The notes beneath the pieces were generated by a model. The model searched no databases. It was not told the origin of the DNA and saw nothing but the letters and a program-made list of their open reading frames with translations. From a virus: a DNA stretch of 44,981 bases. Below, piece by piece: positions 12,796 to 29,454 of this stretch. Made by a program: the position numbers and the translations under genes. Where the stretch lies: positions 1-44,981 of the IMG/VR virus record IMGVR_UViG_3300043777_000093; one strand, written 5' to 3'. Numbering within the stretch: the stretch's first letter is position 1; each line of letters begins with the position of its first letter.

Positions 12796-12893
12796 TGTTG
12801 ATGCTGGTGTTGCTGCATGTGCCGTCAAGGATTCACGTCCAGCCGCCGCTGCCGCCCGTGATTTGCAATACAGCGACGGGATGCCAGCGGTGA
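12783..12893 (+). CDS. Small hydrophobic/secreted peptide (36 aa)
   Basis: ATG 12,783 follows AAAGGAGAAGCT, a strong ribosome site. MFGLMLMLVLLHVPSRIHVQ is a signal-like hydrophobic helix, followed by a proline-rich tail with two cysteines. It overlaps the first glycosyltransferase gene by 13 nt. Perhaps a membrane peptide or mainly a coupling device for translating the next gene, which lacks its own ribosome site. Confidence 0.55.
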   Translation: MFGLMLMLVLLHVPSRIHVQPPLPPVICNTATGCQR

Positions 12894-13426
12894 CGGATGT
12901 CTTTCTGCGGACGACGAGCCGGAACCTTGTTGACCCGCTGAGGCGTGCGTTCTATGACGCGACAATGGCGCGGTGGGCGATGGAGCCGGTGTCTGTCCGG
13001 GTGCTGAAGGACAAGGGCATACGGGAAGGGCGGCTCTTGGCCGAGCAGATGGCTTCGACCGACATCTACATCTACGCGGACGATGACGTTCTCCCGCATG
13101 GGAAGGGCTGGACTGGTTGGGGGTTGAGAGCGATGAAGCAGTGCCCGGGCTTTGCCATCTGTTCGAGCCTCAGCCTGATAGAAGGCGAGAACCGGGCCAC
13201 GGGCGAAGGCATCATCTACGATGTGGGCTGGATAGGCGCTCCGATGTGGATTAGAAGGGGAGTCATCGGCGAAGACCTGCCGGATATGACGCTTGGCTCG
13301 GAATGCGGTGTTATTGATTTTTACGTCAAGGGCAAGGGCTTCCGCTGCGGGCTAATCAACGGTCTGCGGCATCTCAACATGGGCCACGGGTTCTCGACCG
13401 ACCAGAACCAGCAGTGGGGCTTCTGA
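12881..13426 (+). CDS. Predicted GT-A glycosyltransferase (181 aa)
   Basis: A GT-A fold is suggested by STDIYIYADDDVLPHGKGW (59-77): a strand ending in an Asp-rich DXD-type motif (A66-D67-D68-D69), which binds metal and the nucleotide sugar. Downstream are LGSECGVIDFYVKGKG and a C-terminal HLNMGHGFSTDQNQQWGF. At 181 aa it is shorter than typical family 2 enzymes. The start is ATG 12,881; TTG 12,863 is an alternative. Its stop overlaps the next start (TGATG). Sugar donor and acceptor are unknown. Confidence 0.7.
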   Translation: MPAVTDVFLRTTSRNLVDPLRRAFYDATMARWAMEPVSVRVLKDKGIREGRLLAEQMASTDIYIYADDDVLPHGKGWTGWGLRAMKQCPGFAICSSLSLIEGENRATGEGIIYDVGWIGAPMWIRRGVIGEDLPDMTLGSECGVIDFYVKGKGFRCGLINGLRHLNMGHGFSTDQNQQWGF

Positions 13427-14028
13427 TGGGGATGCATATTGCCGTAAAGTCCTGCGAGGCTCATTGGGACCGCGTGTATGCCCAAAGAGGAACATGGGCT
13501 TGGGACTACCATGAACTATATTTCCCCCTCACTGGCAAGATGCTCGGCGTCCCTGACGACTATGGCCACCTACCTCACAAGACGAAAGCCATCTGTAACT
13601 ACTTCTTTGGGGACTACCTATTCCTATGTGATACGGACACCTACGTTCATGCCGAGAGGCTGATTAGCGGCCTTACAGAACCCCATGACTATGTAGGGCA
13701 CGCACTAGAGATTAACGGCATCCCCTACGCCTCTGGCGGGGCAGGGTACTGGCTGTCTCGCAAGGCTATGGACATCATCGCCAGGGAAGCCGTCCCAGAC
13801 CACTTCCCCTACGAGGATTACATGGTAGGCGCTACGCTCTACGAGCACCGCATCCCGCTCCACCACGACCCGCGCTATACCCTCGCGCTCGATAGCTGGC
13901 CCGAACCCGGCAACGACCTCATCACCAAGCACCTCTCGATGAACGGTCCCTACAAAGTCGAAATGATGTATAAGGCCCACAGGAGGGCACATGATTTACG
14001 GTGGAAAGAAAAGAGAGCAATGCGATGA
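13426..14028 (+). CDS. Fringe/GT31-like glycosyltransferase (200 aa)
   Basis: YLFLCDTDTYVHAERL (64-79) contains the DXD motif; YASGGAGYWLSRKAMDII (101-118) and FPYEDYMVGATLY (127-139) match the SGG.GY.LS and ED..VG blocks of Fringe and beta-1,3-galactosyltransferases (GT31). Such enzymes add hexoses or HexNAc to a glycan using UDP-sugars. ATG 13,426 shares a base with the preceding stop; its stop overlaps the next start. Rare in phages; probably acquired. Confidence 0.75.
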   Translation: MGMHIAVKSCEAHWDRVYAQRGTWAWDYHELYFPLTGKMLGVPDDYGHLPHKTKAICNYFFGDYLFLCDTDTYVHAERLISGLTEPHDYVGHALEINGIPYASGGAGYWLSRKAMDIIAREAVPDHFPYEDYMVGATLYEHRIPLHHDPRYTLALDSWPEPGNDLITKHLSMNGPYKVEMMYKAHRRAHDLRWKEKRAMR

Positions 14029-14801
14029 TTGTCAGCTTGGAAGGGGGGTGCGGAAACCAACTTTTTCAGGCTGCTTTTGGCCTGTCCGTCGCCAAAGCCA
14101 GAGGCGAGGAATGCTTCTTTACCCGCCACAAGCTCGAACACGACCCTAACGGCAGAGTCTATGAATTAGGCCACTTTGCCGCTGACATCAAGTTTGTCGA
14201 ACGAGAAGAGGAGCCTATCTGCTGGGACTCCTGGTACCACAACCCCGGCGTCTATGACAAAAAGTGGCAGTCCTTCGCAGGCCACTGGCAAACCGAGAAG
14301 TATTTCGATGCGCCCCTTGTCAGGCAGGCCACTAAGCTCCGCCACCCCGTCTCCATCGTGTCTTCTTTGACCGCCATTGATATCTTCCTTCAGCCTAGCG
14401 CGTTCATCCATGTTCGGCGTACCGATACTCTGAAACCAGAAGAAATCGAGTACCACGGGCGCTGCTCCGATGGCTACTATGCCAGAGCTATAGACCATAT
14501 TCGCGAGAAGGTTCCGGGCGTGCGATTCTTTGTGTTCTCGGATGACCCGTGGTGGTGCCGGGAGCATTTCTCCAAAGACTTTACTTTCGTGGACTATAAC
14601 CTAGCCAGCGCCCACGAAGACCTCTGGCTGATGTCACTTTGCAATCACGCTATCATCGCCAATTCCACCTTTTCATGGATGGGGGCTTGGCTAGGCGACC
14701 AACAAAAGGACCGTATCGTGATAGCTCCTAGCAAGTGGTTTCGCATCGGCCTGAACTATTCCGACGTGGTTCCAGATAGGTGGCTTAAATTTGATAATTA
14801 G
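14025..14801 (+). CDS. GT11 alpha-1,2-fucosyltransferase-like enzyme (258 aa)
   Basis: All main GT11 blocks are present: GGCGNQLFQAAFGLSVA (7-23), FIHVRRTDTL (127-136), the GDP-fucose-binding HXRRXD, FFVFSDDPWWC (168-178), and DLWLMSLCNHAIIANSTFSW (199-218) followed by GAWLG. These enzymes transfer fucose (or a related GDP-sugar) to O-antigen or glycoprotein glycans. The start is ATG 14,025 in an ATGA overlap. With its neighbours it forms a glycan-building cassette. Confidence 0.88.
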   Translation: MIVSLEGGCGNQLFQAAFGLSVAKARGEECFFTRHKLEHDPNGRVYELGHFAADIKFVEREEEPICWDSWYHNPGVYDKKWQSFAGHWQTEKYFDAPLVRQATKLRHPVSIVSSLTAIDIFLQPSAFIHVRRTDTLKPEEIEYHGRCSDGYYARAIDHIREKVPGVRFFVFSDDPWWCREHFSKDFTFVDYNLASAHEDLWLMSLCNHAIIANSTFSWMGAWLGDQQKDRIVIAPSKWFRIGLNYSDVVPDRWLKFDN

Positions 14802-15420
14802 AGATTCAAGCTGGCTGAATCTGCGCCGCAAGGACATTACCAGCCAGAACGGCGAGGATGGCGTCCTCGAAGCTATCTTCGACCGCATCGGCGTAAGAAC
14901 CTGGTGGTGCGTCGAAGTCGGTGCGCACGATGGCATGACCAACAGCAATACCTGGCAGTTCCGCATGAAGCATGGCTGGACCGGAGTCCTCATCGAGCAG
15001 GACAAGAACCTAATTCCCAAGCTCCAAGAGAACTCCGGCGACGATGACATCATCGTGCACGGCACGGTGGACGCAGTAAACTCCCTCGACCGCATCCTGC
15101 TCCAAACGCTGATTCCCAGGAACTTCGATTTGCTCAGCATCGACGTGGACGGCAATGACCAGGAACTCTGGCGCTCGCTCAAGCATTACAAACCCCGCGT
15201 GGTGGTTATCGAAGTGGATTCCAGCCAAGAACCGCACATGGACCACAAATCAGGAATCAAAAGCGCCGTGGCTCTGGCTAAAGCAAGAGGCTATGAACTT
15301 GCACTACACACGGGAAACGCCATCTTTGTCGAACAGCGGTATATTAAAGTTCTGAACATCAACCCTGAGAAATGGAGCGACTTGTTTGATTACAGTTGGG
15401 CGCAAAACCGAATTATGTGA
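14791..15420 (+). CDS. FkbM-type SAM methyltransferase (209 aa)
   Basis: TSQNGEDGVLEAIF (17-30) and WCVEVGAHDGMTNSNT (39-54) form the SAM-binding start typical of FkbM-like enzymes; FDLLSIDVDGNDQELW (112-127) and RVVVIEVDS continue the Rossmann core. FkbM enzymes O-methylate sugars or hydroxyl groups, which fits the glycosyltransferase neighbours. Start TTG 14,791 overlaps the previous gene by 11 nt. Methylation may cap or mask the glycan (inference). Confidence 0.8.
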   Translation: MIIRDSSWLNLRRKDITSQNGEDGVLEAIFDRIGVRTWWCVEVGAHDGMTNSNTWQFRMKHGWTGVLIEQDKNLIPKLQENSGDDDIIVHGTVDAVNSLDRILLQTLIPRNFDLLSIDVDGNDQELWRSLKHYKPRVVVIEVDSSQEPHMDHKSGIKSAVALAKARGYELALHTGNAIFVEQRYIKVLNINPEKWSDLFDYSWAQNRIM

Positions 15421-15988
15421 ACTGGCCGAAAAGCACGGTACGGACAAGTGGTTCTACTACACCGCTTTTTACCACGACTTGCTGAAGGACCGCCGCGAGA
15501 AGGTAAAGCGGGTGCTGGAACTAGGAATCGGCTCTCCGGCCACGATGCTTGATTCCCTTTCCCGTGCTGGCATCGCCGAATACAAGACCGGAGCGAGCCT
15601 ATTTCTTTGGCGGGAATACTTCCCAAACGCTGAAATCATCGGTCTGGACATTGACCGCTCGACATTCGTCCATTCATGTGGGATTCGTTGCTTTTATTGC
15701 GACCAGCGCGACCCTATGAGCTATCCGCTGGCGGTTCTTGGCCAGTCTTTCGACTTCATCGTGGACGATGCCATGCACGAAAAAGAGCCACAACTGACAG
15801 CGGTAAAGACACTTATGCCGAATCTCGCGCCAGACGGGATTTACATTATCGAAGACGTAGGCTATCTCGGCCATGAAGCGCGGCGCGAATTCCTCGAAGA
15901 AATTCCTTATCCTTCGCAACTGGTGGAGTTCCACAATCCCCGGCTAGGTCCGCACATCGCCGCTTGCATCGTGGTCCGCCATGAGTAG
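15386..15988 (+). CDS. TylF/TcmP-like SAM methyltransferase (200 aa)
   Basis: The order CELAEKHGTDK (11-21), RVLELGIGSP (42-51), GASLFLWREYFPNAEIIGLD (69-88) and FDFIVDDAMHEKEPQL (122-137) matches sugar O-methyltransferases of the macrocin/tetracenomycin-rhamnose group. LELGIG binds SAM and the DD..H site suggests metal. TTG 15,386 overlaps the FkbM gene by 35 nt. It probably O-methylates a hexose made or added by the neighbouring enzymes. Confidence 0.8.
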   Translation: MITVGRKTELCELAEKHGTDKWFYYTAFYHDLLKDRREKVKRVLELGIGSPATMLDSLSRAGIAEYKTGASLFLWREYFPNAEIIGLDIDRSTFVHSCGIRCFYCDQRDPMSYPLAVLGQSFDFIVDDAMHEKEPQLTAVKTLMPNLAPDGIYIIEDVGYLGHEARREFLEEIPYPSQLVEFHNPRLGPHIAACIVVRHE

Positions 15989-16664
15989 GGATTTGATAAT
16001 TGGGGCCGCGATGGGCTATACCGATGAACAACTCAAGCCATTCGTCAACTCCCTGAAACGCACAGGCTACGACGGAGACTTGGTGCTCATCCGCCAGAAT
16101 CCCTACGCGGTGCATTCGATTCTCTCCCGCTTCGACCTCATCCCGCGCTATATCACCTATCACCGCTGGGTCATCGCCATCGACACGTCGGACGTGGTTT
16201 TCCAGTCAAACCCAATAGATTGGCTCAATCAAAATGCCGCAGGCCATGAACTTGTGGTGGTCAGCGAAGGCACTACATTCGAGCAAAGCGAAGGCAACAA
16301 ACGAAATATGATGGAAGCGTTCCCTGGATATTGGGAACAGATGAGAACGAGAGAAGTATTCAATGCCGGAGTCATCGCGGGGAAAGCCAGAACTGTAAAA
16401 GACCTCTCGGAGCAAATCTACATGCTCTGCTTGCAGGACCATCGCGTGAACGGCGCTCCCGTCAAGAAACTCGAATGGTTCGAGATGATAAGCGACCAAT
16501 CGGCGCTGAATATCCTGCTCGATACCATCCCTTGCGTGCTCCGCGCCAACGCCGCTTCCGGCTTCGTCCACAACTATTCCCACCCCGGCAACGGGGAGCA
16601 CTGTGCTATCCTCCATCAGTATCTCTACACGCGCGGAGACGAAATCCGCGCAAAGTACGCCTGA
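15981..16664 (+). CDS. Glycosyltransferase-like protein (227 aa)
   Basis: RDLIIGAAMGYTDEQLKPFV opens a Rossmann-like half; RWVIAIDTSDVVFQSNPIDW (62-81) has a DXSD motif in the place of the DXD of GT-A enzymes; EVFNAGVIAGKA and SDQSALNILL recall the acceptor/donor segments of family 8-like or uncharacterised transferases. ATG 15,981 overlaps the previous stop by 8 nt. It closes the cassette. Substrate unknown. Confidence 0.65.
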   Translation: MSRDLIIGAAMGYTDEQLKPFVNSLKRTGYDGDLVLIRQNPYAVHSILSRFDLIPRYITYHRWVIAIDTSDVVFQSNPIDWLNQNAAGHELVVVSEGTTFEQSEGNKRNMMEAFPGYWEQMRTREVFNAGVIAGKARTVKDLSEQIYMLCLQDHRVNGAPVKKLEWFEMISDQSALNILLDTIPCVLRANAASGFVHNYSHPGNGEHCAILHQYLYTRGDEIRAKYA

Positions 16665-16675: not shown

Positions 16676-16888
16676 ATGGCCCTCATCGCCTGGATTGACT
16701 TCATGAATCAGAAGAACGCGGGAACGTGGAACGCCAAGACCATTGCGATTCCCGTGGCTTCAAACACCGGAATTGCCTGCCCCAACTGCGGCACGGAACT
16801 GCAATCCACTTTCTCTCCGCTCGAAGGGCAAGACCCGCCGCAATATACCTTCACCGGCGATTATGCATTTCACACAGAAAGGCGGTAA
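16676..16888 (+). CDS. Small protein with CPNCG knuckle (70 aa)
   Basis: GGAGG stands 6 nt before ATG 16,676. MALIAWIDFMNQKNAGTWNA is followed by GIACPNCGTELQ, a single Cys-X2-Cys knuckle, and a beta-rich C-terminus. It follows the last glycosyltransferase by 11 nt and is probably in the same transcript. Convergent with the leftward gene at 16,921. Unknown function. Confidence 0.65.
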   Translation: MALIAWIDFMNQKNAGTWNAKTIAIPVASNTGIACPNCGTELQSTFSPLEGQDPPQYTFTGDYAFHTERR

Positions 16889-16920
16889 GATGAAACTCCG
16901 TGACAGGGCAGCAGTAAAAA

Positions 16921-17199
16921 CTAATTGGGTGGTTTGTTTGCCGTCGAGGCCGGGGGAGCTGGAGCGGGTGGCTGTTGGGGCAATATGCCCATGCTTTGGA
17001 GTAGTGCAAACGTATTCTTCGCCGCGCCTCTCCAATGAAAGCGGCAGTTCTCGAAAGCCGTATTTGCCCATTCCGAATCTCCGCCGGAATAGAAAAGGTC
17101 GCAATTCTTCAAGCGGCAACGGATGAACACAACGTCATCTAGAACGAAGCTCTGATCGTTAAGAGTTTTGTCCTCGTATACTTTTATTTCGTTTCTCAT
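16921..17199 (-). CDS. Pentapeptide-repeat-like small protein (92 aa)
   Basis: ATG 17,199 follows GGAG; a GTG at 17,211 is less likely. The N-terminal 55 residues alternate FVLDDVVFIRCRLKNCDLFY and FENCRFHW in a way that suggests a few turns of a pentapeptide-like beta helix. A proline/alanine tail follows (PQQPPAPAPPAST). Related small proteins sit next to accessory genes in many bacteria. It is the last gene of the leftward cargo block. Confidence 0.65.
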   Translation of the reverse strand: MRNEIKVYEDKTLNDQSFVLDDVVFIRCRLKNCDLFYSGGDSEWANTAFENCRFHWRGAAKNTFALLQSMGILPQQPPAPAPPASTANKPPN

Positions 17200-17220
17200 G
17201 CGGATCTCCACATAAGGCGG

Positions 17221-17272
17221 ATTTCCAAATTGGAAATTTTATCAAAATGGGAAAAAGTGTAACGGTGTAACG
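17221..17272. promoter_or_regulatory. Operator-like palindrome and tandem 8-mer upstream of the pentapeptide-like gene
   Basis: ATTTCCAA-A-TTGGAAAT (17221-17237) is a perfect 8-bp dyad around one base. Next to it on the minus strand are GATAAAAT, a likely -10, and at 17257-17272 two tandem copies of GTGTAACG. This 85-nt gap separates the DUF3467 gene from the pentapeptide-like gene and could hold a repressible promoter for the latter. Confidence 0.45.
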
Positions 17273-17284
17273 CTCAAAACGGGC

Positions 17285-17632
17285 TTATTTCTTTATAAGG
17301 GATTGCAGCGCTGCGGTAACTTGTTCCTGGGTCTTTACAGGCCGAAGCTGCCCAAAGACCTCCTCATACTTAGCTACGGATGCGAGAATAGCATCTCCTA
17401 CACTCTTCGCAAACTCAGGGCTCATGACGACGGACAATTTAGGAGATACTAGCGACTCCGATTTGTCCACTGTCCCATGAGCATCAGGATTGATTATGAT
17501 TGTCTTGGGACTCATCTCCGCGAGATAGAGCCTCAGATCACTAAAGGAAACCGTAACATTCGCAATATTACAGTAAATCGTTGGTACGCCTTCTGAACCG
17601 TAAGATACGTTTGGGGATTTTTCGTTTTCCAT
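17285..17632 (-). CDS. DUF3467 family protein (115 aa)
   Basis: The order TIYCNIANVTVSFSDLRLYL (18-37), then KLSVVMSPEFAKSVGDAIL and KYEEVFGQL matches DUF3467: a small beta domain followed by a MSP..AK helix and YE..FG. The family is widespread in bacteria and has no known activity. AGGAG precedes ATG 17,632. It follows the XRE antitoxin gene by 11 nt, so it probably shares the toxin-antitoxin transcript. Confidence 0.75.
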   Translation of the reverse strand: MENEKSPNVSYGSEGVPTIYCNIANVTVSFSDLRLYLAEMSPKTIIINPDAHGTVDKSESLVSPKLSVVMSPEFAKSVGDAILASVAKYEEVFGQLRPVKTQEQVTAALQSLIKK

Positions 17633-17643
17633 TGTTTGTTCTC

Positions 17644-18321
17644 CTATTGCCGTAGAGCGACCTGAGAGGATGCTGTTCCAGAATTGCCCAGGTAGGTCAA
17701 CAGATCGGCAGGCTCAGGAGCAGAGATGTATCCTTGCGTGGATTTTTGGATTATCTGATCGAGCAAACCACGGTGCGTTATGGCACTGACATTGACTGTC
17801 AATAGATTTGCGTCTGCTGGGACCGTGATAGTATGTGCAGGAAATACAGGCAAAGGCGAAAGAACGCCGGATTCTTTTTCTTCATCATAGCTGGGGACTG
17901 CGAGAGATGCGCTGGAAAGCCCGTTGTCTACAAATGGCGTGCCACTAATCCAGTTAATGAGTTGGCTGAACGGGACAAATCTTACGATCAACGCAACATC
18001 GAATGCTGCTGCCAGCCTTTTTAGGGTGGTGATTGTAGCCCTGCCATATTCGGGAGATTCCAAACGGTGGATTGCATTCTGATTCATTCCCACCATCGCA
18101 CCTAGTTCCGTTTGGCTTAGCTCTTTCTGCTCCCTCATCTCTCGAACCTGAAATGCGTATCCCTTGTCCACATGGGAGGATACAAAACGCTCTCGCGCCT
18201 CTTTGCTGCGACTTAGCCGCCTAATCAGGCTCGCTCTCGAATTTAAATTGGTGGGTTGTTGCTTCGCGTCGCCGAAGTTTTCCAAGATTATCCTTTGCGA
18301 TCCCTTTCCCGTGAGTATCAT
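17644..18321 (-). CDS. XRE-family antitoxin/regulator (225 aa)
   Basis: Residues 56-115 are an XRE helix-turn-helix: AFQVREMREQKELSQTELGA, MVGMNQNAIHRLESPEYGRA and TLKRLAAAFDVALIVRFVPF. The preamble RRLSRSKEARERFV is typical of this antitoxin-like group. The C-terminal 100 residues are of unknown role and could bind the toxin or a ligand. AAGGTGAAGA precedes ATG 18,321. The start lies inside the toxin gene, with a 101-nt overlap in another frame. Confidence 0.75.
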   Translation of the reverse strand: MILTGKGSQRIILENFGDAKQQPTNLNSRASLIRRLSRSKEARERFVSSHVDKGYAFQVREMREQKELSQTELGAMVGMNQNAIHRLESPEYGRATITTLKRLAAAFDVALIVRFVPFSQLINWISGTPFVDNGLSSASLAVPSYDEEKESGVLSPLPVFPAHTITVPADANLLTVNVSAITHRGLLDQIIQKSTQGYISAPEPADLLTYLGNSGTASSQVALRQ

Positions 18322-18631
18322 TCTTCACCTTCTTGTCGGTTCCATGCAAAAACGTATATGATTGCTGGGTACCTTCCGGCCAAAAGCACCCGTATATTCG
18401 GTATGTGATACTTTCGGCCTTGAATCGAACCTCCGAAATACCTTCCTCAAGGGGACTGAACCGGGGACGTTTCCATTCAATGATTGAAGCGTGCTGTAAA
18501 TACCCGAGTGTGTCACGAGCCTCATCTTGAGCTATGTCCGGCAGGCCATCAAACCAGTCTTGAACAAGGCGGTTTTTTAGAGCCGTCTCGAAGCCCAGAA
18601 ATGTCCAATTCCAGACTTTGCGCTCTTTCAT
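18221..18631 (-). CDS. RelE/HigB-like toxin (136 aa)
   Basis: The middle (IEWKRPRFSPLEEGISEVRF, then TYRIYGCFWPEGTQQSYTFL, HGTDKKVKN) follows the beta-sheet core of phage-type RelE/HigB toxins (DUF891/Gp49-like), with basic residues that cleave or contact mRNA on the ribosome. ATG 18,631 is preferred over TTG 18,643. TTGACG and TATTTT lie just upstream on the minus strand, leaving almost no leader. Toxin-first order is typical of HigBA. The C-terminal 33 residues overlap the antitoxin gene. Confidence 0.7.
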   Translation of the reverse strand: MKERKVWNWTFLGFETALKNRLVQDWFDGLPDIAQDEARDTLGYLQHASIIEWKRPRFSPLEEGISEVRFKAESITYRIYGCFWPEGTQQSYTFLHGTDKKVKNDTHGKGIAKDNLGKLRRREATTHQFKFESEPD

Positions 18632-18647
18632 AAAATACCACAAAAAA

Positions 18648-18708
18648 GATGTACGTCAATAAAGATGTTGGCCGCAATATGGAGTGTATATCAATTTTGA
18701 TGTACAAT
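18648..18708. promoter_or_regulatory. Toxin-antitoxin operator-like dyad and tRNA promoter
   Basis: GTATATCAA-TT-TTGATGTAC (18686-18705) is a 9-bp dyad with one mismatch, and the half-site GATGTAC recurs at 18648-18654 near the toxin start: a plausible operator for the XRE protein. TACAAT (18703-18708) matches the -10 consensus at five of six positions and ends 8 nt before the tRNA, so the same dyad could control tRNA expression. Confidence 0.45.
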
Positions 18709-18716
18709 GCGATGAT

Positions 18717-18811
18717 GGGGCCGTGGCAGAGCGGTCTAATGCGCCGGATTTATAATCCGGTGAAACGTGTTAGCGCACGTTCCGAAGGTCCGAATCCTTC
18801 CGGCCCCGCCA
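18717..18811 (+). tRNA. Class II tRNA, anticodon UAU, with encoded CCA
   Basis: A full cloverleaf folds: acceptor GGGGCCG/CGGCCCC, 3-bp D stem GCA/TGC, anticodon stem CCGGA/TCCGG around the 7-nt loop TTTATAA, a long variable arm with AACGTG/CACGTT, T arm GAAGG/CCTTC, discriminator G and CCA. The anticodon (18751-18753) is TAT, which reads AUA (Ile). The long arm is normally found only in Leu, Ser and bacterial Tyr tRNAs, and G73 with a long arm is the Ser pattern, so the amino acid it carries is uncertain. Confidence 0.85.
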
Positions 18812-18832
18812 GTATGGTATCATGCACTTGGA

Positions 18833-18961
18833 ATGAAAGTAGAAAAAGAGAAATTCGATTCTCTGTTAGGGAAGCTCCTCAAGGCAAAACCTGAGCCGCG
18901 CAAGAGCATAAAAGTCAGCAAAAAGAAGCCGCCCAAGGTAATAGTACCTTCCTCCGAATAG
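18833..18961 (+). CDS. Small basic protein (42 aa)
   Basis: MKVEKEKFDSLLGKLLKAKP begins a helix, followed by a lysine-rich tail (RKSIKVSKKKPPKVIVPSSE). It lies 21 nt after the tRNA. There is no clear ribosome site. The FD.LLGKLLK pattern resembles small hypothetical proteins of soil bacteria (from memory, unverified). Possibly nucleic-acid or membrane-surface binding. Confidence 0.55.
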   Translation: MKVEKEKFDSLLGKLLKAKPEPRKSIKVSKKKPPKVIVPSSE

Positions 18962-19082
18962 TATAAAAAAAGTATCGTCGCGGTGAACTTCGGCATCTCA
19001 TTCAACGTCTATAAGAGTGTGAGGGAGGATCGTCAAAAGAACTTGACTTTTGCGGCAATGGTGTTCAGACTCTGGCCGCAAA

Positions 19083-19493
19083 ATGAATCCCAGCGCAAGT
19101 CTATTAACCAATCCGTACTTTATAGCGATTATTTCCCCCACGGCGTTACTTTTTTTGGGAACCTTGGGAAAGGGAATAATCAAGGGCTTTAGCTGGGAAA
19201 TATTCTACTTGGGTTTTGATGCCTCGCTCTCTGCGGTGTACGCAGGAATGGTGTACCTTTATGATGTAGCACGAACCCCGGTGCTTAGAAGTGAGAACAA
19301 GTTAGAGCTTGTAGCCGGGTTCCTAATTGGGTCATTTGTACTCTTTTTTGTGGTAGTGATGTGCCATCAGATATGGGAAAAAGACGAAAAAAGGGACAAA
19401 AAACTCGCGCAATTCCTTGTTCTTGGGGTACTTGCGAACTTCATCGGATTTGGCCTCCTTGTGGCATTCGTATTGCTCGTTAAGGGGGTGTAG
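19083..19493 (+). CDS. Multi-span membrane protein (136 aa)
   Basis: Four hydrophobic segments are visible: around NPYFIAIISPTALLFLGTLG, the segment after KGFSWEIFY, ELVAGFLIGSFVLFFVVVM and FLVLGVLANFIGFGLLVAFV, with a charged loop EKDEKRDKK between the last two. ATG 19,083 is chosen over a TTG at 19,050. Codon use is more A/T-rich than in the structural genes, hinting at separate origin. Function unknown; a membrane exclusion factor is possible. Confidence 0.65.
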   Translation: MNPSASLLTNPYFIAIISPTALLFLGTLGKGIIKGFSWEIFYLGFDASLSAVYAGMVYLYDVARTPVLRSENKLELVAGFLIGSFVLFFVVVMCHQIWEKDEKRDKKLAQFLVLGVLANFIGFGLLVAFVLLVKGV

Positions 19494-19506
19494 CAGAGGT
19501 GTACTT

Positions 19507-19770
19507 ATGGCGAAGCGTAAAGTTTTCCCTTGGTTTAGAGTTTTCACATTTCCGACATTGATCGCTGGCGTAGGGCTGACTATTGCAGCAGCGGGGGTGT
19601 CCTCTCCTACGCTTATGTTCACGGCCGCAGCCTTGAGTGCAGCTGGCCTTATCTCCATATTCGTAGGACGATATCTAATGAACGACCCGGACCCGCCTAT
19701 TGTTCATCGGGTAGACGACGTAGTGACGCAAACTCCTAAGCCTGAACATGCTGCCATCGCTCACCGCTGA
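19507..19770 (+). CDS. Two-span membrane protein (87 aa)
   Basis: GAGGTG precedes ATG 19,507. After a basic start (MAKRKVFPWFR) come two hydrophobic helices (FPTLIAGVGLTIAAAGV and FTAAALSAAGLISIFVG) and a polar tail. It follows the larger membrane protein by 13 nt and may act with it. Its stop ends one base before the transposase stop, so the two genes converge. Confidence 0.6.
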   Translation: MAKRKVFPWFRVFTFPTLIAGVGLTIAAAGVSSPTLMFTAAALSAAGLISIFVGRYLMNDPDPPIVHRVDDVVTQTPKPEHAAIAHR

Positions 19771-20691
19771 CTAGTTGGTTGAAGCCGTCAGTCTCTTGTA
19801 GGGCAGGACTTCGCCGCGCGTGAGATTTTTGAGCGTCTCATCAAACATCGCAAGCTGTGCCTTGCGGCGATTAAACCGATAGGAAAACTCATTGCAGTAG
19901 CGGCCCAAGTGCTTTATCGAAACCTTGTGGAACGTGCCGTACACGCCGCGCTTGAGCAAAGAGAACGCGCTTTCAATGTGCTGTGTGTGCGTATCGCCCT
20001 GAGCGTAGGATTCTATGTGGTTAATCGTCTTGTGCTTCCCGCTGAAATTCTTGCTCAGGTATATCGCATATGTTGCAGCCGCGTCCGTGTAGATCGTCTC
20101 AACGTCGGGGCTGATATGCTTCGATAGCTCAGGGCCGATGGATTCCATCTTGGCATCTTTTACAGGGATTAGCCGCAGTTTGCCGCCACGCTCAACCATG
20201 CCCAAAACAACGTCTTTCGTCTCTTTCTGGACATAGGGCTTGCCCTTGCGGGGCTTGCGGCGAGTCATGTAGGTTTCGTCGGCCTCGACCGCACCAGAGA
20301 GCAACGTGCCTTCTTTCATGGCCTCGCGGATTCTGTGGCATAGATGCCAAGCGGTGCGGTAATTCACGCCCAAGTGACGCTCTACTTGCTTCGCGGAGAT
20401 GCCCTTCTTAGCCTCACAGATGAGCGCAATGGCCATAAACCACTTGGTTAGGGGCAGGTGCGTATCGTTGAAGATCGTGCCGCTCGTGGCGCTGAATTGC
20501 TTCCCGCAGGCCAAGCACTGGTAGATGCGCGTCCGTTTGTTCTTGCCAGCCTCGCGCTGAATCTTAGAGATGCGACCTACCTCGCCGCAGTGGACACAGC
20601 CAATCTCGCCGTTGGGCCAGCGCATCTTCTCGATGTAGTCGAGGCAATCATCGTCAGTCTTGAATTTGCGCGTTACATCTATGAGCTTCAT
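19771..20691 (-). mobile_element. IS1595/ISXO2-type transposase gene (306 aa)
   Basis: The N-terminus has a zinc ribbon CVHCGEV ... YQCLACGKQFSATSGTIF (32-74) and an HTH (GISAKQVERHLGVNYRTAWH), then the ISXO2-like DDE core: D138 in VEADETYM, D203 in YTDAAATY, E240 in HIESAFSLLKRGVYGTFH. All catalytic residues are present, so it may be active. I could not find matching inverted repeats or a target duplication around it. It is coupled (ATGA) to a 27-residue upstream membrane peptide. Confidence 0.88.
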
Positions 20692-20771
20692 GGTTTAGGA
20701 TTCCTCTTGCGCCATATCATTACGGTCAGCACGATTACGGCGATGATGGGAAACAAGAACGTCAATTCCAT
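20688..20771 (-). CDS. Membrane leader peptide before the transposase (27 aa)
   Basis: MELTFLFPIIAVIVLTVMIW, then RKRNPKP: one membrane helix with a basic end. Its TGA overlaps the transposase ATG. There is no ribosome site; TTGACA lies exactly 35 nt upstream of the ATG, so it may be leaderless. It could simply couple transposase translation, or be a cargo peptide. Confidence 0.5.
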   Translation of the reverse strand: MELTFLFPIIAVIVLTVMIWRKRNPKP

Positions 20772-20777
20772 GAAGCA

Positions 20778-20806
20778 AGACTACATCAATAACGGTTCTG
20801 TGTCAA
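20778..20806 (-). promoter_or_regulatory. Promoter candidate for the transposase unit
   Basis: On the minus strand TTGACA (20806-20801), 17 nt, TAGTCT (20783-20778), six bases before ATG 20,771. The -35 is perfect, the -10 weak. Confidence 0.45.
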
Positions 20807-21566: not shown

Positions 21567-22073
21567 ATGGCGGTAATGCCATCAGAAATTTGTCTGCTCA
21601 ACCAGACAACGGCGATTACCGCGAACGGCAACAGCCCCGTCTTCAACCTTCCCGCAACATACAATGGAGCTATTCTTTACCTGACGGCTGGCATTCCCAC
21701 CGGCACTTCTCCCACGCTCGATGTTTATATCCAGCAAGGGTTCACAGCTTTGCTGGCGGGGGACCAATCCACCTTGCCGGTAATAAACACAGCCATTCCA
21801 ACAATTTGGGACGATTATGCCCATTTCGCGCAACTGGCGTTCAATGCCGCCGCGCAATCCCAGGTTATGCGCATCAAAGTCGGCACAGGAACGAGCGCAG
21901 CAAACGGCCCCATGGCAAGCGTCACGGCAGCGCAGTCAGGCTCTCTAGCGGCTTCCACCGTTCAGGAAGGGCCGTTAGGAATGTTCTGGCGAGTGTTCTG
22001 GAAGGTTGGCGGGACAAGCCCTTCCTGGCCGAGCCTGACGATTATCGCGCAGATGGTTAACCCGCAGGGCTAG
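21567..22073 (+). CDS. Virion-associated beta-sandwich protein (168 aa)
   Basis: The blocks TAGIPTGTSPTLDVYIQ and WKVGGTSPSWPSLTIIAQM recur in the product of 28,984-29,454 (GTSPTLDV and GGTSPNYTLGIYMFAQ), so these two are paralogues. The composition (Thr, Ser, Ala, Gly) fits a capsid decoration or head-fibre protein. ATG follows the previous stop directly. It ends at TAG 22,071, after which the frame stays open for 23 more codons. Confidence 0.7.
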   Translation: MAVMPSEICLLNQTTAITANGNSPVFNLPATYNGAILYLTAGIPTGTSPTLDVYIQQGFTALLAGDQSTLPVINTAIPTIWDDYAHFAQLAFNAAAQSQVMRIKVGTGTSAANGPMASVTAAQSGSLAASTVQEGPLGMFWRVFWKVGGTSPSWPSLTIIAQMVNPQG

Positions 22074-22374: not shown

Positions 22375-24057
22375 TTGCCCCTCCATGCCATTCCAGCCGT
22401 AGACCAGTGGCTCACCGACCGCCAGAGAGCCAGAACCGACCTCCTCTACCTCTGTAACGAAGTCCTGCAATACAAAGACATTGCCGCCGACCCGCACATG
22501 GACATGATTGACAATGTGCAGAAATTCCAAGGCGGCAAGGACTTTTGCGATGTAAAAACAGGCGTATGGCTAGGCTACAAACCAGCCATTGATATGTGGA
22601 AGATGCCGGGGCCGCGCCGGAGAATGTTCTGGTTCCACAGAGGCTCGCTGAAGACCACCACTATCACGGTGGCGCATTCGATTCAATGGCTCATCAACTA
22701 CTACGACATCCGAATCCTGATAAGCACGGCAGTCAGCGACCAGGCCCAGAAGATGCTGTCTGAAATCTCCGGCCAGTTGAAATACAACGAATGGTTCCGC
22801 ACGCTCTTTCCAGAAGTCTGTCCTTCGGCCAATCATGCCGCCGAATTTGGTAACCAGGAAGAGTTCACCATTCCTTGCCGGGAAAAGAAGTGGCTGAAAG
22901 AGCCTACCGTTTCTGTAACTTCCGTTGGCAAAGTCATTGCCGGATATCACTACGAAGTTATCAAGCACTCGGACATCGTGGACAAGGAAAACATCAAGAC
23001 GGATGGCGGACGCAGGGCGGTAGCGGAGCATTTCAAGTATATGTCGCCGCTGATTGAGCGGAATCCCGTTCCGCCCCATTACGGCTGGCAGGACGTGGAA
23101 GGGACACCTTACGATTTTCTCGATGCCTACAATACCGAAATTGTGGAAAAGGAAGGGAAGCTGCCGCAACAGAAACGCACTTGGCAAATCACCATCAAAG
23201 GATGCTACCGCGATGCCGAACAGAAAATACCATTCTGGAAAAAGCGATGGCCCGTCGAAGCCCTCGAAGACGAACGGCACAACCTCGGTGACGTTCTCTT
23301 CGCAGCACAAATGCTTTGCAACCCCATCCCTGATAGCGGGGGTTTGGCCGCAAGCAAGGACATCGTATTCTTCCCCCGTAAGGCTCTTTCGGGAATCCCG
23401 CTGCGCTATCACTGCACCGTGGACCTGCATGGAATGGAGGATAACGCAGGGAACGACTCGACTGTTCTTAATGTAAGCGGCTTCGACAACGACGGCAGGA
23501 TGTACCTTATCGACCTGAAAGTAGGGCATTTCGACCCATTCGAGACCATCGAGCACATCTTTCAGATTCACAAACGCTACAAGGACATCGACTTCAAGAT
23601 TGAAAAGGACGCCCATGCCAGAGTGCTTTTGCCGTTTTTGAAGCGCGAGCGCACCAAGCGGAATCTCTTTCCCCGCATCATTCCGATTCAGCGCGATACC
23701 CGCACAAGCAAAAAGCAGCGAATCCGCGGCCTGCAATCTTGGTTCAAGTCGGGGAACATCCGTATCCTGGAGGATTTAGAGCCAGCGGCGCGATTGGAAC
23801 TTATCCAGCAGATAACGCGCTTCACGCTGACAAGCCACTACCATGACGACATTCTCGACACGATGGCCGACCAGTGCCAGAACGGGGACGGCGGAGTAAG
23901 TTATGATTTGACGCCGCGCACCAAGCCAGAGTATGTTCCGTTCGAGACGGGCGTGGATATGTTCCTCGGCTTCGATGAATTCGATAAGCAAGCGAAATGG
24001 CTGATGGACCAGCCGGCGAAATGGGATGCGAGCCACCATAAAGGGACGGGCTTGTGA
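22375..24057 (+). CDS. terL: Terminase large subunit (560 aa)
   Basis: The ATPase/nuclease motor that packages DNA. The P-loop is the variant HRGSLKTTT (88-96); the Walker B region is YEVIKHSDIVDKEN (193-206). The RNase H-like nuclease has D350 (CTVDLHG), a second acidic group at E409 and HYHDDILDTMADQ (488-500), the D..D pair typical of TerL. Length is normal. TTG 22,375 is the start, after AAAGG. It is directly followed by the portal gene (GTGA overlap), the usual order. Confidence 0.9.
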   Translation: MPLHAIPAVDQWLTDRQRARTDLLYLCNEVLQYKDIAADPHMDMIDNVQKFQGGKDFCDVKTGVWLGYKPAIDMWKMPGPRRRMFWFHRGSLKTTTITVAHSIQWLINYYDIRILISTAVSDQAQKMLSEISGQLKYNEWFRTLFPEVCPSANHAAEFGNQEEFTIPCREKKWLKEPTVSVTSVGKVIAGYHYEVIKHSDIVDKENIKTDGGRRAVAEHFKYMSPLIERNPVPPHYGWQDVEGTPYDFLDAYNTEIVEKEGKLPQQKRTWQITIKGCYRDAEQKIPFWKKRWPVEALEDERHNLGDVLFAAQMLCNPIPDSGGLAASKDIVFFPRKALSGIPLRYHCTVDLHGMEDNAGNDSTVLNVSGFDNDGRMYLIDLKVGHFDPFETIEHIFQIHKRYKDIDFKIEKDAHARVLLPFLKRERTKRNLFPRIIPIQRDTRTSKKQRIRGLQSWFKSGNIRILEDLEPAARLELIQQITRFTLTSHYHDDILDTMADQCQNGDGGVSYDLTPRTKPEYVPFETGVDMFLGFDEFDKQAKWLMDQPAKWDASHHKGTGL

Positions 24058-26081
24058 GCGAAGACAAAGTTCCGGCCATCACGCAAGAGGAAAAAGATAA
24101 GGTCTACACCCCTGACCAACGATGGTCCGACGATTACGCCTCGAAGATTGCGCTGGCCGACTTTCAGAAGATGGAGAACTACCGGAGCCAGAACCATGAC
24201 TGGAGGTTCAGAAATGCAGACGAGTTATATTCCGCCTGGGTTGGTACTAAGTACTGGGAAGGGACTAGGGTTCCACGTTCGTCTCTTGGTATTTACGTTT
24301 GCTTCGAACAAATCGAATCCTTGCTCCCTAACATTGTCAAAGCCATTTTCGCAAGTTATCCCCCGTTCGATACCTCGCCGGAACCGAATACAAGCCTCGC
24401 CGAAAGCCAGCAAGTAGAAAATCTCCTGCTTCACCAACTGGAAAGAATCGGCAACGGACTCGGCAACAGCAAGATACGAGTCGGCGTGAAAGAGACTGTC
24501 CGCCGCACGCTCAAGAGCGCCTTTGTTTACGGCAACGGAATCACGGAGTTAGGTTGGGAAAGCTATGAGCGGGAACGGCTGCAATACCTGGTCCAGCGCA
24601 CGCCGGTCATGGGCCGGTTCAGCCACCCGCAATTCGGCCTCATCAAGACTCCGGTAGGCTCGAAGCCTCGCACCACCATCAAGAAAATCACCGAACAAGT
24701 GAACATGCCGTTCGCCAAGAACATCCCAATTCAGGACTTCTACATCGACCAGAACTGCCAGTCTCCGCTTGTGCAGGATGCCCGTTGTGCCGCCGTCAGG
24801 GAACTGGTGCATGTCGATGAGATTCTAAAGTATGAAGGCAACAAAAGCTTCAAGCTCCCGACCCGGCAAGAGCTTTACGAATGGTCGAAAGAGAAGTGGT
24901 CCACGATGGGGGACTACTCGAAGTCGTCCACGGAACTGATGCGGTCGGGAGTCTACTGGCCGACAATGGAGGGCACCGCCGATGCCGCAGGACAGCGAGT
25001 CGAAATCATTCGATACGTCACGCCTTATCGACTGGTATGGCTTTGCGGTAGAAAACGAGCCATTCTTAATATCCCTAACCCGTATGGCTTTATCAACTTC
25101 TTCAACCTCTGCTACGTCGATTACCCAAATCGTTTCTATGGCTTCGGAGTCACCGATGTTGCCGAGGGAGAACATAGACTCATCCAATCGATTATCAATG
25201 CTAGGGTTGATGAGCTTGCTTTGGCCATCCACAAGCCCATCATCAAGCGGAAAGGGGCGACGTTCTCGCAAAGCCAGCTAAGAATCCGGCCCGGAATAAA
25301 CTGGGAGGTGGAAAATCCAAAGGAAGACATTCAGACATTCGAGTATGGAGCTATTAACCAGAACGCTTATGTCGAGGTGGAGGCAGCGGAGCGGCGGCTC
25401 CAGAAGTACACAGGTATTACGGATTTGGCCGTACAGGGTGGGCCGACTCCTGGCGGAAATTCCGCTAACCGAACGGCTACAGGAGTCAACGTGCAAGCCG
25501 GGGCTTCCGGCACGCGAATGGAGTATCTAGTCGGCACGGCGGAATCGACCTATCTCGAACCTCTGATTTACGGCCTCCACGCGCTGAACCAGAAGTTCCT
25601 CGACCCGCAGCAAGTCCTTGAAATCCTTGGGCCTGATGGCAAGCAGTTGCAACTTGACCCCACGATGATTAAGAATGCGGAATGCAGGTTCAAATTCATG
25701 GCCAGCGAGCGCATGGGTTCCAAGAACAACACCCTGCAAGGGTTGCAGTCAGTTGGACAATATCTCTTGAATCCCGGCTACATGGAGGCGCTCGCGCAAA
25801 TCAACAAGGTCAAGCTGAACGTGAAATTCATCGGCGACAAGATAGGCGATGCAATGGGCTGGCGCGACAGCGATATGTTCATCCCGCTAACGCAGGCTGA
25901 AATACAAGCGCAGAACCAGCCAAGCCCGGCAGACCAATTGAAACTCCAGATGCAGCGCGAGCGCATGGCCTCGATTCACGATGACCATCAGGAAGGCAAA
26001 TCCGCCGACATGCTGAAGGAATTGCTGCTACATAGCGCCGAACATGCCAGCGAAGAGGAAGAGGAGGCACCCGTGCAATGA
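24054..26081 (+). CDS. Portal protein (675 aa)
   Basis: Large, follows TerL with a 4-nt overlap, and has the mixed helical/beta layout of podovirus-type portals: an N-terminal region (NYRSQNHDWRFRNADELYSA), the wing (DFYIDQNCQSPLVQDARCA), a long helical stem around IQSIINARVDELALAIHKPI, and a glutamine/glutamate-rich C-terminus (QLKLQMQRERMASIHDDHQE; EEEEEAPVQ). The portal forms the dodecameric DNA channel. GTG start. The stop overlaps the next ATG. Confidence 0.82.
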   Translation: MSEDKVPAITQEEKDKVYTPDQRWSDDYASKIALADFQKMENYRSQNHDWRFRNADELYSAWVGTKYWEGTRVPRSSLGIYVCFEQIESLLPNIVKAIFASYPPFDTSPEPNTSLAESQQVENLLLHQLERIGNGLGNSKIRVGVKETVRRTLKSAFVYGNGITELGWESYERERLQYLVQRTPVMGRFSHPQFGLIKTPVGSKPRTTIKKITEQVNMPFAKNIPIQDFYIDQNCQSPLVQDARCAAVRELVHVDEILKYEGNKSFKLPTRQELYEWSKEKWSTMGDYSKSSTELMRSGVYWPTMEGTADAAGQRVEIIRYVTPYRLVWLCGRKRAILNIPNPYGFINFFNLCYVDYPNRFYGFGVTDVAEGEHRLIQSIINARVDELALAIHKPIIKRKGATFSQSQLRIRPGINWEVENPKEDIQTFEYGAINQNAYVEVEAAERRLQKYTGITDLAVQGGPTPGGNSANRTATGVNVQAGASGTRMEYLVGTAESTYLEPLIYGLHALNQKFLDPQQVLEILGPDGKQLQLDPTMIKNAECRFKFMASERMGSKNNTLQGLQSVGQYLLNPGYMEALAQINKVKLNVKFIGDKIGDAMGWRDSDMFIPLTQAEIQAQNQPSPADQLKLQMQRERMASIHDDHQEGKSADMLKELLLHSAEHASEEEEEAPVQ

Positions 26082-26536: not shown

Positions 26537-27259
26537 ATGCCCGACCCAAGCACCTCAGAAATTAAGGAAGTGATTCAGCAAGTCAATGCACCGAAAGACT
26601 TCCCTGGCGAGTTCAAGCTAGGGGATGGCACAGTCGTCAAAGCCGCCAATTGGGAAGAGGCTTTCAACAAAGTGGCGGAAATGAAATCCAATACCGCCGC
26701 TGCTCTGCGCGACCGGGAAGCTCAGATTGAAACCTTGCGAGCTGCAAGCACTCAACAGACCACACAGCAAACAACGCAACAGGTAACCACGGGTTTCGAC
26801 CAGAAGACCTATTGGGAATTGATGAATTCGGATGTCATTGCCGCGCAGAACTATCTGGATTCCTACCGCCTCGGCGTGGACAATCCGGCCAATGTGCCCT
26901 TGCTTTTCAACGAAATGCGCAACGTTTCGACCTTCAGCGCGGATAACTTCGAGATTCAGAGCTTCATGCAAAAGAACCCTGACTTCCCCGGAACGGACGA
27001 AGCCGCAGACTATCTCATCAACCGCCTGGCAGCCAGAAACGCTCCTTTGACCGCCGATGGGCTGGAATATGAATACCTGAAAGGCGTGCGTGATGGCGTC
27101 ATTGAGCCTTTGGGCGAGGAAGTGAGCCGCCCATTCGCTCCGCCGAACCTGCAAAGCGCCAGTCTGGGCCGGGAAGAAATCAGCGTTTTGGAGCAAATCA
27201 GGAACACACCCGACGATAAACTGGACGAAGCCTATCGAAAATTGGGACTTTTGAAATAG
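26537..27259 (+). CDS. Likely scaffolding protein (240 aa)
   Basis: It lies directly before the major capsid gene, the usual scaffold position. The protein is acidic and mostly helical, with a Thr/Gln linker (STQQTTQQTTQQVTT, residues 70-84) and a charged C-terminus (SVLEQIRNTPDDKLDEAYRK), all typical of scaffolds. AGGAGG stands 12 nt before ATG. There is no sequence-level motif, so the call rests on position and composition. Confidence 0.65.
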   Translation: MPDPSTSEIKEVIQQVNAPKDFPGEFKLGDGTVVKAANWEEAFNKVAEMKSNTAAALRDREAQIETLRAASTQQTTQQTTQQVTTGFDQKTYWELMNSDVIAAQNYLDSYRLGVDNPANVPLLFNEMRNVSTFSADNFEIQSFMQKNPDFPGTDEAADYLINRLAARNAPLTADGLEYEYLKGVRDGVIEPLGEEVSRPFAPPNLQSASLGREEISVLEQIRNTPDDKLDEAYRKLGLLK

Positions 27260-27427: not shown

Positions 27428-28420
27428 TTGGCCTACGCGCCAGCAGTCTCAACAACCACCTCACCGCTTCTACCGCATCTAAACGTAACGTACTACTCTC
27501 GAAAGGCTCTCAGCCAAGTAAAGAAACAGTTCCGTTTTGCGGCAGTCTCCGAACCGGATGAAATCCCGCGCCGTTCAGGCAAGAATGTCCAATGGTACCG
27601 TTACCTGACGCTTGGCGCGAACATCACTCCGGCCCCGGAAGGAACGGTGGGTGCCGCAGTCCCGCAGCAGACCGCAACCGTCACCGCGACGGTCTCGGAG
27701 TATGCGGATTTCAGTTCCATTTCGACTCTTGCCGACGAAGTAGCCATCGACCCCATCACCACCAACCATGCCACAAACCTCGGCTATCGCGGCGGGTTGA
27801 CGGTCGATACCATCGTCCGCACGGAGTTTGACAGTAACCTTGCCAGCGTTTCGGTAGCCACAGCAGGAGCTTATGCCACGGTCTTTGACCTTAAGAAGTG
27901 CGTGGCTTTCCTGCGCGGCAATGATGTGCTTCCCAAAGAAGACAACGAGTTCCACGGCATCATCCATCCCTACGCGGTCTTCGATATTCAGGCGGACAAT
28001 ACGGCTGGCGGCTTCGTTGACGTAATGAAGTGGGCCAAGCCAAGTGTCTTCCTCGAAGGCCAAGCAGCGGCGGATGGGTCGATGGGAGAAGTTGGCGGCG
28101 TGCGGATGTGGACCACGACCAACGTGGGGACTTCCGGCACGGCTCCAAACGTTCTCTACAACATTTACGTGGTAGGCGCGGGAGCGGTAGGGCGCGTTGC
28201 CCTGCAAGGTTCCGGGCCAAACTATGTGGTTGACCCTGCGGTAGTCGGCTCACCTGGCGAGGAGTTCAACGTCAAGGTGGTGCGCGGCGGACCTAACCCG
28301 GCAGACCCCGAAGGGATGATTGGCTCGTTTGTGAGTTACCGCTTCGTGTTCGTCGCCAAAACGCTGGATTCCACCACGTTCCGCTATCGGATACTTCAGG
28401 CCGATGCGAGCTTGGTATAA
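27428..28420 (+). CDS. Major capsid protein, N4-gp56 family (330 aa)
   Basis: The N-terminus with LPHLNVTYYSRKALSQVKKQ (16-35), then IPRRSGKNVQWYRYLTLG, a PAPEG loop, ADFSSISTLADEVAIDPITT and GGLTVDTIVRTEFDSNL match the HK97-fold N4-gp56 group of capsid proteins. The length is within range for short members. TTG start with GGAGAGG 7-10 nt upstream. The capsid is the most expressed virion protein, in line with the dedicated leader hairpin. Confidence 0.85.
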   Translation: MAYAPAVSTTTSPLLPHLNVTYYSRKALSQVKKQFRFAAVSEPDEIPRRSGKNVQWYRYLTLGANITPAPEGTVGAAVPQQTATVTATVSEYADFSSISTLADEVAIDPITTNHATNLGYRGGLTVDTIVRTEFDSNLASVSVATAGAYATVFDLKKCVAFLRGNDVLPKEDNEFHGIIHPYAVFDIQADNTAGGFVDVMKWAKPSVFLEGQAAADGSMGEVGGVRMWTTTNVGTSGTAPNVLYNIYVVGAGAVGRVALQGSGPNYVVDPAVVGSPGEEFNVKVVRGGPNPADPEGMIGSFVSYRFVFVAKTLDSTTFRYRILQADASLV

Positions 28421-28434: not shown

Positions 28435-28974
28435 ATGCCATCCTTTCTAGCTAGCGCACGAAGCAACAAACTCCCAAGCACCGGGACCGGCAACGTCACT
28501 TCCGAGACGCAGATTCTCGGCTCTGACGGCAAGGTACTGGTAGTCCCCATCGAAGGCTCGCTGGTGCTTCAGACTCCGGGCAATGCGCGGCGCTTCCGTT
28601 ATTCCATCGCCGGGTACATGACCTCTGGAACCAGTTCGACCGTGACGCTCAAGATGTATCTTGGAACGAGCACCACGATTGCCAACAACGGCACGGCTCT
28701 TTTCAGCATCACGACCGCATCGCTTGGCAGCACCAACCAGAACTTCTTTTTAGACCTGGTGCTGATGTACGACTCGGTAAGCCAAAGCATCGCTGGCTAC
28801 TATGTCGGCCAAGCCTGCAACACGCTGATTGACTTGACGGCCATCACGCAGACCTCCCTGACCACATTCTCGGATGTCGCAGAGAACCAGGGCTTCACCT
28901 TGACGGCCATCTTCAACTCAACCAACGCCAGTAACAACCTGATTGTTACCACGGCAGAAATCATACCGGAGTAA
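28435..28974 (+). CDS. Virion protein, beta-rich (179 aa)
   Basis: AAGGAGG precedes ATG 28,435. Ser/Thr-rich beta segments (RRFRYSIAGYMTSGTSSTVT; LKMYLGTST; FFLDLVLMYDSVSQSIAGYY) alternate as in capsid decoration or trimeric fibre proteins. It resembles the product of 37,969-38,514 in the order RRF ... YLGT ... LDL.M..DS. Its position just after the capsid gene favours a head-decoration role. Confidence 0.65.
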   Translation: MPSFLASARSNKLPSTGTGNVTSETQILGSDGKVLVVPIEGSLVLQTPGNARRFRYSIAGYMTSGTSSTVTLKMYLGTSTTIANNGTALFSITTASLGSTNQNFFLDLVLMYDSVSQSIAGYYVGQACNTLIDLTAITQTSLTTFSDVAENQGFTLTAIFNSTNASNNLIVTTAEIIPE

Positions 28975-28983: not shown

Positions 28984-29454
28984 ATGGCTGAAGTCTTTAT
29001 TGGTCCGCAATCACAAGCTCTCGTTGCTGCCGGGACCGTCGTTTCTGGCGCTCCTGGCAGTACCACCTCCGCCGTCCTTACCTTGCCCTTGGCCGATAGC
29101 TATGCGTTTGTTTTGAACGTCACGGCTATTACCGGAACCTCTCCGACGCTCGACGTGGCGCTGCAAGTCACGCCGGACGGCGGGACGACTTGGTTTGACT
29201 GGTTGCGCTGGGCGGAAGTCACTGGCAATACCGCAGTGACGCGCCGCATGATTGTGCAGCCGATTCAAGGACGCGGCGAGGCGGCTACCGAAGCGGCCAT
29301 CACTGCCGGAACAACCAACAGCGTATTGATTCAGAACGTGCCGATGCCGGGCGCTCTGAGCCAGATTCGCTTCCGCTATACCATCGGCGGAACGTCGCCA
29401 AACTACACTTTGGGCATCTATATGTTCGCCCAAGTGAAGCAGAGCGCCATCTAA
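28984..29454 (+). CDS. Virion protein, beta-rich (156 aa)
   Basis: AAGGAG precedes ATG 28,984. It contains ITGTSPTLDVALQVTPDGGT and FRYTIGGTSPNYTLGIYMFA, the same blocks as in the product of 21,567-22,073. Such F.YTI.GTSP domains occur in phage minor head or decoration proteins. It directly follows another beta-rich gene and so belongs to the head module. Confidence 0.7.
   Translation: MAEVFIGPQSQALVAAGTVVSGAPGSTTSAVLTLPLADSYAFVLNVTAITGTSPTLDVALQVTPDGGTTWFDWLRWAEVTGNTAVTRRMIVQPIQGRGEAATEAAITAGTTNSVLIQNVPMPGALSQIRFRYTIGGTSPNYTLGIYMFAQVKQSAI

Follow-up and report, generated by a model that had tools for sequence, protein, structure and literature searches.

Six overlapping genes near the front of the packaging strand

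The DNA analyzed here (the window) spans the full 44,981 bases of a viral record (IMG/VR, IMGVR_UViG_3300043777_000093), in which no terminal repeat was found, and the phage that it represents is podovirus-like, with a genome of ~45 kb. Its genes are directed leftward before ~10.9 kb, and the main genes run rightward from 11.25 kb in the order helix-turn-helix (HTH) protein (11,677, rightward), a block of six genes (g1 to g6), a small protein here called dec, the large terminase (TerL), an SU10-type portal, a scaffold-position gene, the major capsid protein, two small proteins and an internal virion protein. Hence, the block comes early on the strand that also encodes the packaging and head proteins. 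Its genes are:

12881..13426, + strand: g1, small (181 aa) glycosyltransferase of predicted GT-A fold with a DDD motif (AlphaFold and PDB fold matches)
13414..14028, + strand: g2, GT31-like glycosyltransferase with a DTDTY motif (PDB profile matches)
14001..14801, + strand: g3, GT11 (fucosyltransferase-type) enzyme (Pfam PF01531, 4.8e-22; PHROG 2644, 3.9e-36)
14791..15420, + strand: g4, FkbM-type methyltransferase with a TTG start (Pfam PF05050, 1.3e-7)
15386..15988, + strand: g5, MycE/TylE-like sugar O-methyltransferase (PDB profiles 3ssm, 2e-22, and 8ia9, 1.6e-20)
15981..16664, + strand: g6, glycosyltransferase of predicted GT-A fold with an invariant DxxD motif (AlphaFold, pLDDT 90, natural alignment)

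The original prediction placed six tightly overlapping genes of the phage at 12,881-16,664, and this was borne out. Six + strand open reading frames (ORFs) tile the interval, with 4-35 bases shared between adjacent ones, whereas base shuffles of the region (n = 200) gave a mean of 0.13 and a maximum of 2 ORFs of at least 180 aa on this strand. The nearest relative, record L004, whose TerL is 91-92% identical to that of the window, carries all six genes in the same order with 54-72% protein identity (57-72% in global alignment), and the ratio of nonsynonymous to synonymous substitution rates (dN/dS) between both sets was 0.09-0.23. Given this collinearity and the low dN/dS, the six are real, constrained genes under purifying selection. 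The same order had been proposed as something to seek in related phages; in addition to L004, five of the six genes are kept in L005 (TerL 66%; same contig as L002), the FkbM gene not being among them, L024 carries g1-g3, and L006 (part of a 155 kb virus) has g2, g3, g5 and g6 within a larger glycan cluster, with g2 fused to a GT6 domain. In this last cluster, a 604-aa protein that unites GT31-type and GT6 (ABO-type) domains (L006:7406-9217) is followed by GT11 and g6 relatives (L006:9190-10981), i.e., the enzyme classes of a blood-group-like glycan adjoin one another. In global alignment with L004 the capsid protein was 99.7%, TerL 91%, the scaffold-position gene 77% and dec 74% identical, so that the cassette changes much faster than the capsid protein and TerL, yet is constrained, and dec and the scaffold-position gene change at near its rate. 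No near DNA match to the block was found in phage records. The block belongs to the phage, since it is on the packaging-gene strand and is kept in related viral records (those examined here may be incomplete).

By family or predicted fold, the block encodes four glycosyltransferases and two methyltransferases. The g1 sequence alone had no Pfam or PHROG match, and its profile matched the GT2 structure 6yv7 weakly (E 0.0065); its AlphaFold model, built from a natural alignment (pLDDT 92), had GT-A enzymes as PDB fold matches, and the Asp pair is conserved among relatives. Polypeptide GalNAc-transferases were among these fold matches, a generic GT-A likeness at 10-14% identity that does not fix the substrate. 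With g2, the PDB profile matches were B3GLCT (8.5e-12) and C1GALT1 (4e-7), and Pfam Galactosyl_T (4e-4) fell under its cut-off; because neither curated Pfam cut-off was passed (PF01762, 20.7 vs 23 bits; PF02434, 11.2 vs 21 bits), this enzyme is named GT31-like only. The PF01531 cut-off was passed by g3 (79 bits vs 23.9), whose family membership predicts fucosyl transfer from guanosine diphosphate (GDP)-fucose; its start is likely the ATG at 14025, giving a 4-base overlap with g2, and its nearest phage relatives, in cyanophages (~32% identity), are annotated only as glycosyltransferases. The g4 protein, 71% identical in L004, passed the PF05050 cut-off (32.4 bits vs 22.7), and NCBIfam fkbM_fam was under its own. 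The only PDB matches of g5 were MycE- and TylE-type sugar O-methyltransferases, and a PHROG methyltransferase match (8.9e-14) was also observed. The fold matches of g6 were GT6 enzymes (1e-8) and the capsid glycosyltransferase domain 2p73 of the chlorovirus PBCV-1 (1.5e-7). Neither g1 nor g6 matched a curated family in the Pfam, PHROG and NCBIfam scans; both are predicted GT-A enzymes, as their models combine the fold with a metal-binding acidic motif. No membrane segment was found in the six proteins (maximum 19-residue hydropathy 1.39), and neither a recognised nucleoside diphosphate (NDP)-sugar synthesis gene nor a flippase was found in the cassette.

The enzyme classes originally proposed (glycosyltransferases, a GT31-like, a GT11 and an FkbM enzyme and a further transferase) therefore stood, except that the methyltransferase at 15,386 is MycE/TylE-like and not TylF/TcmP-like. 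Placement of at least three of the six in glycosyltransferase or methyltransferase families had been anticipated, and family or predicted fold supports all six, as it does the proposal that the set builds and methyl-caps an oligosaccharide. The ribbon-helix-helix regulator said to head the unit from 12,442 was not supported: only a sub-threshold NikA match (E 0.056) was obtained, and no sigma-70 promoter signal above chance was seen before the block. The statement that the majority of phages have no more than one or two such genes was too strong, since large marine myophages carry many glycosyltransferases (PMC7029224); what stands out is the presence of six in a phage of ~45 kb, and their position.

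Genomic setting of g1 and its companions

Scanning with a TerL profile gave 80 viral loci, and the survey of g1, made on viral contigs, detected relatives in ~20 of them with a first-pass profile. These occupy two main positions. The first, which is that of the window, precedes dec and TerL, and g1 and dec overlap in L042 and L044. The second, seen in eight loci (L014, L015, L016, L028, L030, L036, L038 and L043, with L030/L036 and L014/L015 as near-duplicate pairs), lies in the gap that separates the scaffold-position gene from the capsid gene; this gap measures 1.3-3.3 kb with an insert and mostly <0.2 kb without one. In L062, g1 is inside the head cluster. In the g1 tree the main division follows position (96/96 support), and two of the upstream copies group with the gap clade. 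Strict g1 was present in 13 of 37 whole records, always beside head or packaging genes and in no other place. No cultured phage with a g1 relative was recovered by tblastn using the g1 of L038, and a scan of GTDB genomes with TerL for hosts or prophages gave no relative.

Glycan enzymes recur around g1 at both positions: inside the gap, GT2 enzymes, O-methyltransferases and an NDP-sugar epimerase; upstream, epimerases, GT2 enzymes, a uridine diphosphate (UDP)-sugar dehydrogenase, methyltransferases and a radical SAM-SPASM protein. Clear GT2/Methyltransf_24 matches adjoined g1 in 9 of 13 g1-positive records, compared with 0 of 9 g1-negative ones (Fisher 0.0017), and with all weak matches included the counts were 10/13 and 1/9 (0.0075); the records share ancestry, so that these P values overstate independence. 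The gene g1 is the hub of the clade's glycan modules, and the association of these enzyme classes with head and packaging genes was observed clade-wide.

Several other arrangements were seen at these sites. The scaffold-capsid gap of L017, L018, L021, L022, L027, L050, L070 and others contains a g1-like gene that is degenerate, having no DXD motif, and that often has a histidine phosphatase gene and a third, unassigned gene for company; such genes surfaced through iteration only, and were kept separate and not counted as g1. In L019:1530-3641, L044:7246-9471 and L042:2-1672 a radical SAM-SPASM protein (identified in L019; the L044 copy is alike), a methyltransferase and a g1-type gene overlap just before dec, a modification module of another kind in this location. 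Between its cassette and dec, L005 encodes a 571-aa protein that has a GH16 glycoside hydrolase domain (L005:3462-5174).

Candidate acceptors and proposed function of the block

Downstream of the block the window carries:

16856-20819: IS1595-type mobile element, between the six-gene block and dec
21567..22073, + strand: dec, small Ser/Thr-rich protein, candidate acceptor (family and synteny; beside the cassette in relatives)
22375..24057, + strand: TerL (PHROG 38, 1.3e-55)
24054..26081, + strand: SU10-type portal (Pfam PF23899, 1.1e-28)
26537..27259, + strand: scaffold-position gene, named from position only (no family match; 67 loci have it between the portal and capsid genes)
27428..28420, + strand: major capsid protein, alternative acceptor candidate (PHROG 1357, 1.6e-26)
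28435..28974, + strand: h435, small Ser/Thr-rich (27%) protein immediately 3′ of the capsid gene, alternative acceptor
28984..29454, + strand: second dec family member, paralogue of the 21,567 gene, in the head cluster

The mobile element has 24-nt terminal inverted repeats (22/24 matching) and a transposase gene at 19,771-20,691 (- strand), and its cargo comprises a DUF3467 gene, an HTH/Gp49 toxin-antitoxin-like pair (17,644-18,643) and a tRNA-Ile(tat) at 18,717. It is not in L004, and a target-site duplication around it was looked for and not found. The capsid protein differs from that of L004 at 52% of synonymous sites, which, set against its amino acid identity, denotes very strong constraint. 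A second copy of the h435 family is at 37,969. Recognisable families are few in the downstream structural region (36909-43104), where 41,096-41,977 matches an HpiC1-like domain (1.4e-7).

Whether the glycan is meant for the host surface, the virion or DNA was left open in the original prediction; on comparative gene order the virion is now the favoured target, because strict g1 occurs only beside packaging and head genes and has glycan-enzyme neighbours there. We consider it more probable than not that the block is a virion-glycosylation module, which would place a short methylated oligosaccharide on the phage particle. The head-gene setting, the soluble enzymes, the cassette without a flippase, the lack of an integrase match in family scans of the window proteins and the precedents described below all point this way. 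The glycosyltransferases are phage-encoded, as they are on a viral record and conserved in relatives, and g6 resembles the PBCV-1 capsid glycosyltransferase in fold. In the infected cell, g1 would begin the glycan on a head protein, most likely the neighbouring dec, favoured by its adjacency, or the major capsid protein, favoured by the gap position of g1 in relatives; no solved relative of dec was found. Next, g2, g3 and g6 would lengthen the chain with nucleotide sugars that the host presumably supplies, no gene for NDP-sugar synthesis having been recognised in the window's cassette, and g4 and g5 would methylate hydroxyls of the outer sugars to give a capped chain. With such a glycan the particle might adhere differently, be shielded or present another surface type; acceptor, step order, sugars and benefit are what we infer here.

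Several observations weigh against glycosylation of the particle. Head-gene adjacency alone is no proof of substrate, accessory genes often insert at head-gene boundaries, and the g1-positive records are related, so that their counts are not independent. In the window the block is 4.9 kb from dec, a distance due to the inserted element, and is outside the scaffold-capsid gap. Furthermore, the capsid protein is nearly invariant between the window and L004 whereas the cassette diverges, and a search for a capsid tail rich in Ser/Thr that would set g1-positive phages apart gave none.

A different target, the host surface, is possible although unlikely. During infection the enzymes would then equip O-antigen, capsule or some other surface glycan with methyl-capped side chains, which would hide the receptor and so avert superinfection or the loss of progeny to debris. 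Polysaccharide loci commonly contain GT11, FkbM and MycE-like enzymes, and the closest phage relatives of g3 belong to cyanophages; in addition, the GH16 glycan hydrolase of L005 adjoins its cassette, and the multi-glycosyltransferase regions of pelagimyophages have been interpreted in this manner (PMC7029224). However, the cassette has neither a flippase nor any membrane protein, unlike gtr serotype-conversion operons, no integrase was matched in the family scans of window proteins, and the recurrent scaffold-capsid position is left unexplained. That the six genes are mere passengers, head-gene boundaries being insertion hot spots that collect glycan genes without a common virion-related target, we regard as very unlikely: the IS1595-type element did insert downstream of the block, the gap holds a transposase-like gene in L040, a weak LAGLIDADG gene in L030 and the degenerate g1-like gene with histidine phosphatase in other relatives, but glycan enzymes recur with g1 at both places and the window's six genes are under purifying selection. 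Slightly less probable still is the decoration of a modified DNA base against restriction. DNA-glycosylating phage glycosyltransferases are well known, according to the work cited in PMC12619734, but no pyrimidine hydroxymethylase or similar base-making enzyme was recognised among the window proteins scanned, many of which have no family. To our knowledge, DNA glycosylation does not typically involve GT31 or GT11 enzymes or sugar O-methyltransferases.

A broader form of the virion-glycosylation proposal is doubtful. It holds that a clade of small podovirus-like phages carries fast-diverging, interchangeable glycan modules in the head cluster, each giving the capsid or head-decoration protein of its phage a coat of its own kind of methyl-capped glycan; the window's set (g1 with GalNAc-transferase fold matches, g2 near core-1-type GT31 and g3 of GT11) might then make a mucin-core-like fucosylated chain on Ser/Thr.

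Phage particles are usually regarded as unglycosylated, and the shown cases of virion glycosylation that we know of are few, mostly in mycobacteriophages. A clade that is represented in many environmental viral records and retains sugar-building and methylating enzymes next to its scaffold and capsid genes would suggest a wider occurrence of capsid glycosylation among phages of the environment; it also provides compact, soluble, methyl-capping pathways open to laboratory testing.

Comparison with known systems

In gtr O-antigen conversion operons a membrane flippase (GtrA) works with a multi-span GtrC-type transferase, and neither family was matched in the cassette. Pelagimyophages and cyanophages also carry several glycosyltransferases per phage, including the GT11 relatives of g3, but these phages are large and T4-like, and the genes are largely in a host-recognition region interpreted as serving host O-chain modification (PMC7029224). 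The nearest cultured phage found was the podovirus (PMC11924767) Tunturi_3 (PP885686) of Tunturiibacter, an Acidobacteriota host, which shares the TerL-portal-scaffold-capsid order and has a capsid protein 30% identical over its length. It differs in its size (97.6 kb) and in having, directly before the capsid gene, where the clade's g1 modules sit, an annotated acetyltransferase (L091:5821-6246) and not glycosyltransferases.

The glycosylation of Vp54 in PBCV-1 (A064R, A111/114R, A061L) likewise uses several soluble viral glycosyltransferases, of galactosyl and fucosyl type, and two methyltransferases of the terminal sugar (PMC5408694, PMC7826918, PMC9614988). There, methyl groups are placed on the terminal rhamnose of the capsid glycan by A064R domain 3, followed by A061L (PMC9614988), a pair paralleled by the window's two methyltransferases, and A064R domain 1 is the domain that g6 resembles in fold. 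PBCV-1 is, however, a giant eukaryotic virus with an N-linked glycan and multi-domain proteins, and the likeness observed is one of fold and enzyme classes. In the mycobacteriophages Che8 and Rita, glycans are reported on the capsid and tail tube proteins (Freeman et al. 2023, as cited in PMC11256854 and PMC12619734). As in the proposal made here, the glycosyltransferases are phage-encoded and head proteins carry the glycan; on the strength of those citing papers it was shown there, whereas for the window it is proposed from gene content and order. These phages are of a different lineage and enzyme set, the window having GT31 and GT11 enzymes and two methyltransferases, and in their relative Maravista the glycosyltransferases are near the 3′ end of the genome, whereas the clade's g1 modules are beside head and packaging genes. 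Virion glycosylation is thus already known in mycobacteriophages, and methyl-capped capsid glycans in chloroviruses; what is new here is the genomic context, i.e., a glycan cassette beside head and packaging genes across a clade.

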